Positions 31,070-32,827 of a stretch of 60,008 nucleotides of DNA are shown piece by piece. The stretch covers positions 1 through 60,008 of the forward strand of contig JANWVO010000014.1 in the NCBI GenBank assembly GCA_025056865.1, in the 5' to 3' direction. Position numbers and translations under genes: made by a program. How positions within the stretch are numbered: position 1 is the stretch's first letter; every line of letters starts with the position of its first letter. The stretch is from Bryobacteraceae bacterium. Its GTDB lineage: Bacteria; Acidobacteriota; Terriglobia; Bryobacterales; Bryobacteraceae. The notes beneath the pieces are model-generated. The model did no database searches. It worked only from the letters and a program-made list of their open reading frames with translations, and was not told the origin of the DNA.

Positions 31070-31860
31070 TGAAGCGACTGCTCACCGGCCTGGTTCTCAC
31101 GCCCTTCTTCTTCTACATCGTCGTCTTCGCTCCGGATTGGGCGTTTCTGGCGGCGCTGGCGGCCGTGGGGCTCGCCTGCTATTACGAATTCCTTGGAATT
31201 GCCGCCCGTCATCTGGCGGATTTCGAGTACGATCCGCGGAAAAATCCGGCCGGATATCTGGCGGGGATTCTGCTGCTTCTGCTGCCCGGCAGCGAGATGC
31301 TGACGATCGTCCTTTTCGCATTCCTCATGTGGATTTTCGCGCTGCGGGCGAAAAACATGGCGCACATCCTCCCGTTCGCGGCGATGGCGACGTTCGGCAT
31401 CGTCTACATTTTCGGGGCCTGGAAATGCGGGCTCTCGCTGCGGCTGCTGAACCCGTGGTGGATGCTGTTCGCCACGGCCATCAACTGGGCCGGCGACACT
31501 TTCGCCTACTACGGGGGAAAGAACTTCGGCCGCCGCAAGCTGGCTCCCGTGCTGAGCCCGGGCAAGACGTGGGCGGGCGCCATCGCCTCTCTGGCCGGCA
31601 CGCTGGCGCTGGGGCTGTGGTTCCTGCACTGGAAATTCCCGCACGTGACGCTGTGGCAGGGCGCGGCCCTTTGCCTGCTGGCGAACGTGAGCGGGCAGGC
31701 CGGCGACCTGTGCGAATCCGCCATCAAGCGCGGCGCCGGCGTCAAGGACAGCGGCAATTCCCTTCCCGGACACGGCGGCTGGCTGGATCGGGTGGACTCG
31801 AGCCTGTTCTCTGTCCCGGTCGTCTACTGGCTGCTGCATTCGGGGTGGATTCAGCCCTGA
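31069..31860 (+). CDS. cdsA: Phosphatidate cytidylyltransferase
   Basis: 263 residues from ATG 31069, one base inside the uppS stop. About eight membrane helices. The signature is intact: SPGKTWAGAIASLAG followed by SGQAGDLCESAIKRGAGVKDSGNSLPGHGGWLDRVDS. It makes CDP-diacylglycerol for phospholipid synthesis at the inner membrane. uppS-cdsA is a widespread bacterial pair. Confidence 0.95.
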   Translation: MKRLLTGLVLTPFFFYIVVFAPDWAFLAALAAVGLACYYEFLGIAARHLADFEYDPRKNPAGYLAGILLLLLPGSEMLTIVLFAFLMWIFALRAKNMAHILPFAAMATFGIVYIFGAWKCGLSLRLLNPWWMLFATAINWAGDTFAYYGGKNFGRRKLAPVLSPGKTWAGAIASLAGTLALGLWFLHWKFPHVTLWQGAALCLLANVSGQAGDLCESAIKRGAGVKDSGNSLPGHGGWLDRVDSSLFSVPVVYWLLHSGWIQP

Positions 31861-31862
31861 AC

Positions 31863-31881
31863 GGCCGCGCCGGACGCGGCC
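31863..31881 (+). terminator. Hairpin just after cdsA
   Basis: GGCCGCG (31863-31869) pairs perfectly with CGCGGCC (31875-31881) across a 5-base loop, 2 bases after the stop codon. The absence of a U-run leaves its terminator role uncertain. Confidence 0.4.
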
Positions 31882-32066
31882 CGGCAGAATCAGCGTGGGC
31901 GCCGGCCGGATTGCCGCCAACGGATGACTGGCATCTCGCGGACTGTGCAGCGGCTCCCTTGCTGCGGAAGCCTCCCGCAGCGAGGCGTCTCCCCCGAGGA
32001 TGAGCGATGGGAACCGGCTGCTTCCAGCCGGCAACATTAAAGTCCCTCCACCCGCGCACTTTCCTG
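31882..32066. other. Intergenic stretch without recognised gene
   Basis: This part of the 970-base gap between cdsA and the GH95 gene holds no credible reading frame. It contains a 7-bp hairpin near 32012-32029 (CCGGCTG, CTTC loop, CAGCCGG) and other short inverted repeats. It could belong to a longer leader or another RNA; I could not assign it. Confidence 0.4.
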
Positions 32067-32099
32067 TTGACGAGTATCGGGTCTGAAATGCAATAATAG
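32067..32099 (+). promoter_or_regulatory. Promoter of the first tandem small RNA
   Basis: TTGACG (32067-32072) is followed after 19 bases by AATAAT (32092-32097), preceded by TG as in extended -10 promoters; TAATAG (32094-32099) is an alternative -10. The expected start is about 32104, a few bases before hairpin A of the RNA. Local AT content is well above the surroundings. Confidence 0.5.
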
Positions 32100-32103
32100 A
32101 GTC

Positions 32104-32226
32104 AAACATAAGTCGTCATCGACTTAATTGCATCCCCGCGAGGAGGCCCAGCTCCTCGCAAGCCCCTCTGACAGGAGGCCGTGCGGTGCCCAGCCACACG
32201 GCCTCATCGCTTTTCTGGATCTTTTT
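32104..32226 (+). ncRNA. Structured small RNA, copy 1 of a tandem pair
   Basis: Three hairpins follow one another. A: AAGTCG/CGACTT with TCAT loop (32110-32125). B: GCGAGGAG/CTCCTCGC with GCCCAG loop (32138-32159). C: AGGCCGTG/CACGGCCT (32176-32204) followed by T-runs at 32211-32214 and 32222-32226, the likely terminator. Between B and C lies an unpaired AAGCCCCTCT (32160-32169). All these parts recur in the same order at 32393-32490, with paired changes in stems B and C. A promoter lies just upstream. No frame with a credible protein spans it. The C-rich single-stranded box could pair with Shine-Dalgarno sequences of target mRNAs; that role is inference. Confidence 0.65.
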
Positions 32227-32240
32227 CTCCACCATTCGGG

Positions 32241-32309
32241 CCATTGGGTGAGCGATGTCACCCAACCTTCACACAATGGGGCGAAATGTCACCCAACCGA
32301 CAGTGGGTG
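32241..32309. repeat. Cluster of TCACCCAA half-sites between the two small RNAs
   Basis: TCACCCAACC occurs twice in direct orientation, at 32258-32267 and 32289-32298, 31 bases apart (about three helical turns). Each has an inverted partner: TTGGGTGA at 32244-32251, making a perfect 8-bp palindrome with a 6-base spacer, and TGGGTG at 32304-32309. The cluster lies between the end of RNA copy 1 and the start of copy 2. It looks like a regulator binding region, but it could also fold as RNA. Confidence 0.5.
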
Positions 32310-32389
32310 CGCACGCGGATCCAGCCGCAAGTCCTTGCAAATTCGTGCGGGATGGTTTGGCATGGCAGATGCACTACAGGAGGGCAACA

Positions 32390-32495
32390 AGCAGTCGTCA
32401 TCGACTCAAACATCCCTCGAGGTGACCCAGCACCTCGTGAAGCCCCTCTACTGACGAAGGCCCTGCGGCTCCCCGCCACAGGGCCTTCCCTCCGT
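32390..32495 (+). ncRNA. Structured small RNA, copy 2 of the tandem pair
   Basis: Hairpin A is AGTCG/CGACT with the identical TCAT loop (32393-32406). Hairpin B is CGAGGTG/CACCTCG with loop ACCCAG (32418-32437). AAGCCCCTCT recurs exactly (32440-32449). Hairpin C is AAGGCCCTG/CAGGGCCTT (32457-32487) with the conserved CGG start of its loop, then a short T-run. Against copy 1, stem B swaps an A:T pair for T:A and stem C swaps G:C for C:G, so pairing is kept while sequence changes. TTGCAA at 32335-32340 could be a -35 box, but no good -10 is visible, so copy 2 may depend on an activator or on readthrough. Confidence 0.62.
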
Positions 32496-32557
32496 TTGCG
32501 TCCCATTTTCCGGCAACGTGCGGATGCCTGGCGGCGTCTTCCCGTCGGAAAACCGGG

Positions 32558-32827
32558 ATGACCCGCTGGACACGCCGTACTGCCCTGCTGCTTCCATTGT
32601 CCGCCGCAGCAACCCCCGCCGTCCGCAGGGAATTGAGGGACCCCAATGGCCGCCTGTTGGGCTGGCTCGCGCCGCGGCCGGGAGGAGTTCTGGAAGCGCG
32701 CGACCGCGCAGGGCGGCTGCTCGGCACATACGATCCGGCAGGCAACGAGACCAGGGACCGCAACGGACGGCTGCTGTACCGGGGCGAGGCGCTTTCGGCG
32801 CTGATCGTCTGCCATGGCGGTGGATGA
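32558..32827 (+). CDS. Small exported protein with repeated D-x-x-GRLLG units
   Basis: 89 residues. RRTALLLPLSAAATPA is a short signal peptide, and the mature chain is a set of near-repeats: LRDPNGRLLGWL, ARDRAGRLLGTYDPAGNETRD, RDRNGRLLYRGEALSALI. This resembles a group of small bacterial exported proteins with DxxGRxLGxYDP repeats of unknown function. It lies 62 bases after the terminator of RNA copy 2 and converges on the GH95 gene, with 3 bases between stops. Confidence 0.65.
   Translation: MTRWTRRTALLLPLSAAATPAVRRELRDPNGRLLGWLAPRPGGVLEARDRAGRLLGTYDPAGNETRDRNGRLLYRGEALSALIVCHGGG

Follow-up and report, generated by a model that had tools for sequence, protein, structure and literature searches.

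Sibling small RNAs (sRNAs) served by two types of promoter are known from enterobacteria, where GlmY and GlmZ, with sigma54 and sigma70 promoters, control amino-sugar synthesis; the RNA pair described here resembles them in being a sibling set with both promoter types and is unrelated to them in sequence. The motif list that contains Acido-1 (RF01686) is reportedly the work of Weinberg and dates from 2010. In the part of that list cited here (PMC2864571), Acido-1 is given as a probable RNA of Acidobacteria that is not cis-regulatory and no function is assigned to it, while Solibacter-1, also listed but given no Rfam entry there, may be a relative of the present RNAs. Acido-1 shares with the siblings found here a core of two hairpins around CCCUCUGAG, but it differs from the present pair in being modelled on the opposite strand and in an Rfam core without a first hairpin (hairpin A). 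Beyond that list, searches of open-licence PMC text, judged by titles and abstract openings, yielded no sRNA study on these hosts. Two further groups are comparable in organization. The Qrr sRNAs of Vibrio, as covered in the relevant part of PMC10162802, likewise comprise several siblings with a sigma54 promoter and an enhancer-binding protein; however, the present RNAs have no Rfam match, belong to another phylum and would answer to another activator and signal, and a Qrr-type sigma54 −24/−12 promoter with upstream activator sites was found at only one of the two copies. The Rhizobiales RNAs Alpha-r14/NfeR1 (SmelA075/SmelA099), in the sections of PMC10746234 and PMC3927594 considered, are also multi-copy RNAs of three hairpins, with freely varying stems and unpaired motifs rich in C; LsrB activates NfeR1, whereas NtrC represses it. 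Their motif CCUCCUCCC, present in each of the three hairpins, is absent from the present copies, although the loops of one class of siblings (type II, below) carry the related UCCCCUCCC.

The window, which is the whole stretch of DNA analysed (60,008 nucleotides of contig JANWVO010000014.1 from a Bryobacteraceae bacterium), contains a three-hairpin element twice on the + strand, at about 32104-32216 and 32384-32495, between cdsA (PF01148) and a GH95 gene lying on the opposite strand. The elements are laid out as follows:

32104-32216, + strand: sRNA copy 1, ends predicted
32109-32126, + strand: hairpin A of copy 1
32130-32137, + strand: link GCATCCCC of copy 1
32138-32159, + strand: hairpin B of copy 1
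32160-32169, + strand: box AAGCCCCTCT of copy 1
32175-32205, + strand: hairpin C of copy 1
32211-32214, + strand: TTTT of copy 1
32384-32495, + strand: sRNA copy 2, ends predicted
32393-32406, + strand: hairpin A of copy 2
32411-32416, + strand: link CATCCC of copy 2
32418-32437, + strand: hairpin B of copy 2
32440-32449, + strand: box AAGCCCCTCT of copy 2
32456-32488, + strand: hairpin C of copy 2

The repeat search placed AGTCGTCATCGACT at 32111 and 32393, a spacing of 282, and folding of the + strand gave three hairpins in each copy, with z-scores of −5.49 and −5.20 and none of 200 shuffled sequences as stable. The arrangement described in the earlier note, two such copies about 280 bases apart in this gap, was thus borne out by the sequence, the repeat search and the folding. 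The TCAT of loop A, the CATCCC link, the CCCAG of loop B and the box AAGCCCCTCT were identical in both copies, as the note had it, and its compensatory changes were also present, stem B having an A:T pair in copy 1 and T:A in copy 2, and stem C a G:C pair against C:G. Its claim of a terminator-like hairpin with a T-tract at the end of either copy held less well: TTTT is present in copy 1 but begins 5 nt past the stem, and the end of copy 2, GGCCTTCCCTCCGTTT, has no real T-run. A consensus scan of 31860-32560 found neither a terminator nor a promoter. Directly after copy 2, a small open reading frame with NGRLL repeats (32558-32827, + strand) was observed, with only a sub-threshold RHS_repeat match.

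Relatives of the pair were widespread in its own family. When 61 genomes were searched at the DNA level, all five genomes of the genus (5/5) had both copies, and more copies turned up in other Bryobacteraceae genera. Model R1, which gave copy 1 a score of 105.6 bits (E 3.8e−37) and copy 2 a score of 83.5 bits (E 1.3e−28), both copies being included in the model, had matches at E 0.01 or better in 113 of 237 Bryobacteraceae genomes; in 15 of these the best E was 1.2e−5 or worse, leaving 98 of 237 below 1e−10. There were one to five matches per genome, counting weak ones, and tandem arrays of two or three copies were common. Under stricter filters, which lose weak matches, all strong matches in the class search (200 genomes) fell within Bryobacteraceae, and the phylum search (199 genomes) had a strong match in the genome of origin only. 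Matches outside Bryobacteraceae were weak (best 7.3e−7) and were rejected, the top two resembling, by eye, part of a tRNA and the end of a coding region followed by a terminator. Those from the plasmid collection, 49 records in all, were also set aside; the records listed were of Serratia, apart from one of Dietzia, and showed a single match of 32 nt. In one genus-mate (G004; C1:533785 on the − strand and 637752 on the + strand, loci L004 and L046), the pair lies about 104 kb apart in opposite orientation, as after an inversion. Moreover, a contig titled Arcobacter sp. (L075, DYJN01000113.1) holds a Bryobacteraceae sRNA pair, and the record is probably mislabelled.

The first candidate set was a pattern scan of the contig collection that gave 88 stretches, 80 of them listed. 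In total, 97 candidates split cleanly by stem B, which had 8-9 pairs in 67 and 0-5 pairs in 30, with nothing between, and the failing candidates among the listed records bore no acidobacterial title, except L110. Removing 10 near-duplicates from the 67 with 8 or 9 pairs left the 57 rows of alignment A2, on which RNAalifold predicted hairpins B and C with 19 pairs, 18 of them with double-sided changes. Paired cells amounted to 95.0% against 78.8% after shuffling, and the covariation was 0.499 against 0.201, with slid structures at 0.06-0.16 and none of 500 shuffles as high. Since the box and CCCAG or CCTAG were also entry criteria, the constancy of the box and CCCAG and the covariation of stem B in A2 are partly selected; stem C was no criterion. 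Alignment A3 comprised 72 later matches gathered by the covariance model, for which reason it leans to the model structure, and it includes four chance-like or fragment rows (L207, L208, L179 at 3253 and L206 at 3415). It had 93.6% paired cells against 78.3% shuffled, double changes in all 19 pairs and a covariation of 0.464 against 0.192. For hairpin A, the check covered only the strongest 5′ stem found in each A2 row. Unpaired stretches were among the most conserved parts of A3, with conservation of 0.96-0.99 for CAUCC, 0.96-1.00 for the loop-B CCC and 0.90-1.00 for CCC..CUC in the box, compared with a mean of 0.78 in the paired columns. The full box AGCCCCUCU was complete in only 24 of the 72 rows, CCCCUC appearing somewhere in 65; it was invariant only in A2, where its presence was required.

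By this comparative evidence the two elements look like genuine RNA genes. The search against Rfam and acidobacterial genomes that had been proposed as a check did bring up covarying homologues in other genomes, and the covariation, the multi-copy spread and the promoter-like sites that the elements have of their own refute the idea that the pair is merely a recent duplicate free of structural constraint. The family and its structure, as well as the strand, promoter classes and palindromes described below, are backed by comparison of sequences.

The two copies differ in the sites that precede them, which are the following:

32067-32097, + strand: sigma70-like promoter of copy 1, with TTGACG (32067-32072), an 18-nt spacer and CAATAA (32091-32096)
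32080-32097, + strand: conserved promoter element GGTCTGAAATGCAATAAT of copy 1
32249-32264, + strand: upstream palindrome 1, TGAGCGATGTCACCCA, a putative enhancer-binding-protein site (score 15.4)
32280-32295, + strand: upstream palindrome 2, GGCGAAATGTCACCCA (score 14.7), kept in 5/5 genus genomes
32326-32341, + strand: IHF-like element CGCAAGTCCTTGCAAA, downstream of the palindromes and upstream of the promoter, kept across the genus though weak at this copy
32357-32373, + strand: sigma54 promoter TTGGCATGGCAGATGCA of copy 2, with GG (32359-32360), N10 and GC (32371-32372)

That copy 1 has its own promoter had been proposed before; TTGACG-18-CAATAA supports it by conservation, being kept in the genome of origin, four genus-mates and two loci of other genera while the flanks diverge, but it gave no match in the consensus scan. 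The sigma54 promoter of copy 2 and its palindromes were absent from the earlier note. This promoter has 10 of 12 consensus letters and is kept in 5/5 genus genomes, and across the genus it is largely retained together with palindrome 2, the right half of palindrome 1 and the IHF-like stretch, while the intervening sequence diverges. The repeat ATGTCACCCAACC (32255-32298, two copies 31 apart) is the right half of both palindromes.

The promoter survey covered 137 items, 112 of them non-redundant, after 28 loci had been excluded by hand as chance matches, with hairpin A called by a simple pattern. A sigma54 site (at least 9 of 12 letters in an 18-nt window) was found in 44 of 63 copies with hairpin A, as compared with 26 of 5931 control windows, and in 7 of 49 copies without it. 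Fifteen hairpin-A copies, including copy 1 of the window, fell below 8 letters and were sigma70-like by eye. With the stray loci L054 and L068 excluded, an unsupervised search of the upstreams of 59 sigma54 copies found the palindrome tGgGnnA-nn-TCnCcCA. It was present in 29/29 and 28/29 held-out upstreams in two of four splits, against about 2 shuffled, while the remaining two splits gave another or shifted motif (20/29 and 22/29, again against about 2). Palindrome 1 was scored with this de novo motif, whose training set includes the same upstream. Furthermore, an IHF-like sequence (at least 8 of 9 letters of the IHF consensus) occurred in 32 of the 59 upstreams, against 2.9 shuffled. Copy 2 is thus preceded by a sigma54 promoter with upstream palindromes and an IHF-like site, an arrangement predicted from sequence that recurs across genera. 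In the double and triple arrays L167-L173, TTTTCAAT-ACTTA-like elements stand before most sigma54 promoters, in reversed orientation with respect to other genera. A GGTCTGAAAT-like stretch is common to the spacers of the sigma70-like promoters of copy 1 (32080-32097) and of several siblings that lack hairpin A (L018, L073, L117, L190 and L200); it is possibly the site of a second regulator.

The elements are self-contained, have promoters of their own and a conserved unpaired stretch, and have no fixed neighbour, as in trans-acting base-pairing sRNAs. The idea of sibling trans-acting sRNAs put forward in the earlier note is supported by the covariation, the multi-copy spread, the promoter-like sites and the lack of a common neighbouring family, and we consider it modestly probable in the following form, in which transcription, signal, activator identity, base pairing, targets and help from Hfq are what we infer. 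Two sRNA genes on the + strand would produce RNAs of about 105-115 nt with three hairpins and C-rich unpaired links and loops. Copy 1 would be made at a basal level from the sigma70-like promoter. Copy 2 would be transcribed by the sigma54 RNA polymerase once an enhancer-binding protein bound the two palindromes (TGGGnGA-nn-TCnCCCA) some 80-110 bases upstream, with a bend at the IHF-like site between them and the promoter, so that an active protein would add copy 2 RNA alongside the low-potential electron proteins pyruvate:ferredoxin oxidoreductase (PFOR) and ferredoxin. The C-rich stretches (CAUCC, CCC of loop B and CCC..CUC of the box) would pair with G-rich sites in mRNAs, probably blocking their translation, and the shared unpaired stretches suggest targets common to both copies. 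A translation block by pairing is preferred in view of the free-standing gene and of its unpaired runs, which rank with its most conserved parts. The activator, the signal and the targets are the weakest links of this proposal.

The more specific suggestion that the box pairs with Shine-Dalgarno regions was not supported in two weak tests. In 61 genomes the target pattern CAGAGGGGCTN{2,12}ATG occurred 41 times and its reversed control 47 times, and duplex energies at 139 gene starts showed no excess over shuffled segments; because both were negative, this idea stays unproven. These negative tests count towards the main rival explanation, that the repeated CCC stretches of the RNA serve to sequester a protein, or another RNA, in the way that CsrB and RsmY sequester CsrA. 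The several similar C-rich unpaired stretches in each RNA, the multi-copy arrays and a box that proved less constant in A3 than first appeared all fit this explanation; however, the C-rich stretches differ in sequence, the conserved runs exceed the length that many protein motifs require, and an Hfq gene is present in the genome of origin (11 of 13 genomes have one). Sequestration thus seems unlikely, though it deserves serious weight. The Hfq-family matches in the genome of origin were three (G000:C52:279323, C58:26651 and C29:57971), one strong and two weak.

Other genes with the promoter type of copy 2 were sought in the genus. The pattern CCCA-N45-75-TTGGCA-N7-TGC had 22 matches in the five genus genomes, against 4 for the reversed pattern. 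Five of them are copy 2 itself, one per genome, and another five, again one in each genome (5/5), precede a small ferredoxin-like gene (Fer4 in Pfam, with NCBIfam FdxA models matching below cut-off), with TGCGCGAAATGCCCCA 90 bases upstream in the genome of origin and close variants in the others. Two more, in 2/5 genus genomes, precede PFOR (TIGR02176, 1890.8 bits), with TGGGGCAGATGCCCCA upstream in both; the other ten, eight of which were inspected, had no gene in common. Since the same promoter type serves ferredoxin and PFOR in the genus, copy 2 probably contributes the RNA component to a response to low oxygen or to low-potential electrons.

The genome of origin has one sigma54 gene and, among 18 matches, 13 strong enhancer-binding proteins, any of which could bind such palindromes. 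Among the 13 activator loci, L296 has a perfect palindrome, TGGGGCAATTGCCCCA, ending 44 bases before the start codon, the top palindrome score in 195 kb of sequence from this genome; it abuts the gene's own sigma54-like site and does not lie at the usual enhancer distance. Its product is a PAS-AAA+-Fis protein with cysteines 64, 70, 73 and 77 in the PAS domain, features suggestive of an autoregulated sensor of redox state or oxygen. With the best palindrome before its own gene, it is the best candidate for the activator of copy 2. The palindrome count alone is within chance: there were five scoring at least 14 in the 195 kb, two of the palindrome loci having been fetched with a pattern containing CCCA and TTGGCA, and five were also reached with permuted matrices, by 18 of 200 when columns were permuted and by 5 of 200 when pairs were, while the 8 scoring at least 12 were similar to permuted counts (9, 4 and 12). 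The pattern GGGTGA-N4-TCACCCA with 2 mismatches had 20 matches in this genome against 15 for the control. A response of copy 2 to nitrogen status, of the NtrC/NifA type and with PFOR being nifJ-like, in place of oxygen or redox, would agree with the frequent service of sigma54 to nitrogen genes and with NifA as the top NCBIfam neighbour of the candidate (378.5 bits, below the cut-off of 528.85). The palindrome is nevertheless unlike the usual NtrC and NifA sites, and the cysteine-bearing PAS domain of the candidate, with no receiver domain among its Pfam matches, also speaks against this response, so we judge the nitrogen alternative improbable, if not strongly so.

The sense strand of these sRNA genes is favoured because of the promoter positions and the U-rich ends. 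Across 110 non-redundant copies, with a sigma54 threshold of at least 9 of 12 letters, 51 upstream sigma54-like sites were found in sense, all 41-60 nt before CATCC, against 3 scattered ones in antisense; ten further sense sites lay 190-249 nt downstream, where the promoter of the next tandem copy would fall. Sigma70-like sites numbered 30 in sense at 21-40 nt before CATCC, with 14 sense and 9 antisense ones scattered. The T fraction in the 15 nt after hairpin C was 0.378 against a background of 0.181, and a run of three or more T followed hairpin C in 85 of 111. If the functional transcript were the other strand, with G-rich loops, this would accord with the orientation of the Acido-1 model in Rfam, with the slightly better antisense folding (mean −52.0 vs −49.5, sense being better in 31 of 126) and with one stem-B pair that, in 26 of 72 A3 rows, reads A-C on the sense strand and would read G-U in antisense. 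In contrast, promoter-like sites cluster at one distance in sense only, the U-rich ends are on the sense side, G-U cells exceed A-C cells in sense (48 vs 20 in A2 and 59 vs 39 in A3) and a crude look found UUUU beyond the antisense end in only 4 of 112. An antisense transcript is therefore highly improbable, the sense (+) reading is very likely correct, and the Acido-1 model of Rfam is apparently on the wrong strand.

The siblings fall into two types. Type I has a 5′ hairpin, GTCRTCATYGAC, which type II lacks, the latter having a run ...ACAGACAGCATCC and the loop AGTCCCCTCC. In an Rfam scan of 20 sibling loci, 15 matches to Acido-1 in 8 loci reached 52-84 bits over the full 64-position model (gathering score 50 bits), all of them type II and antisense to the promoter-backed reading. 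At a relaxed E-value, 8 of 11 loci had an Acido-1 match of 35.9-46.1 bits, below the cut-off, including L040, which has a sigma54 promoter; L013 scored 27.3, and the genus-mate L005 had no match. The window copies had no Rfam match at gathering, and relaxing the E-value to 5 over 31950-32600 brought up nothing real and no Acido-1 match, so the pair is not Acido-1 by the rule of Rfam itself. The earlier statement that no named family was recognised is accordingly right for the window copies, which match none in Rfam, but not for their divergent siblings, which match Acido-1 on the opposite strand; the accompanying guess, that a motif of Acidobacteriota known from comparative genomics might match, pointed to the right kind of RNA. 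Because type II and intermediates match and the window copies do not, the pair appears as a divergent branch of a superfamily that ends in Acido-1, and thus as a new branch of an orphan, partly known RNA family.

Leaders, attenuators or terminators of neighbouring genes, to which a position after cdsA and GC-rich hairpin ends might point, can be dismissed as the least credible explanation, the leader or riboswitch reading being rejected on the neighbours, since the neighbourhoods share no protein family (the commonest, adenylate kinase, accounts for 8 of 122 flanking proteins scanned, of 147 from a rough ORF caller) and the elements have promoter-like sites of their own and occur in tandem.

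For the wider family, an orphan Rfam motif gains a gene structure with its promoter classes, a strand that is likely and a role that can be tested, and Acido-1 is joined to a much wider family present in 98 of the 237 Bryobacteraceae genomes searched. We tentatively propose, as a possibility somewhat short of probable, that this orphan acidobacterial motif, apparently catalogued on the wrong strand, is a large regulatory sRNA family, and that its sigma54 branch would belong to a regulon in which an activator with a cysteine-bearing PAS domain switches on PFOR and ferredoxin, the RNA tuning aerobic or other mRNAs whenever a flow of low-potential electrons is required. A regulatory RNA circuit is thereby proposed in a common soil phylum.
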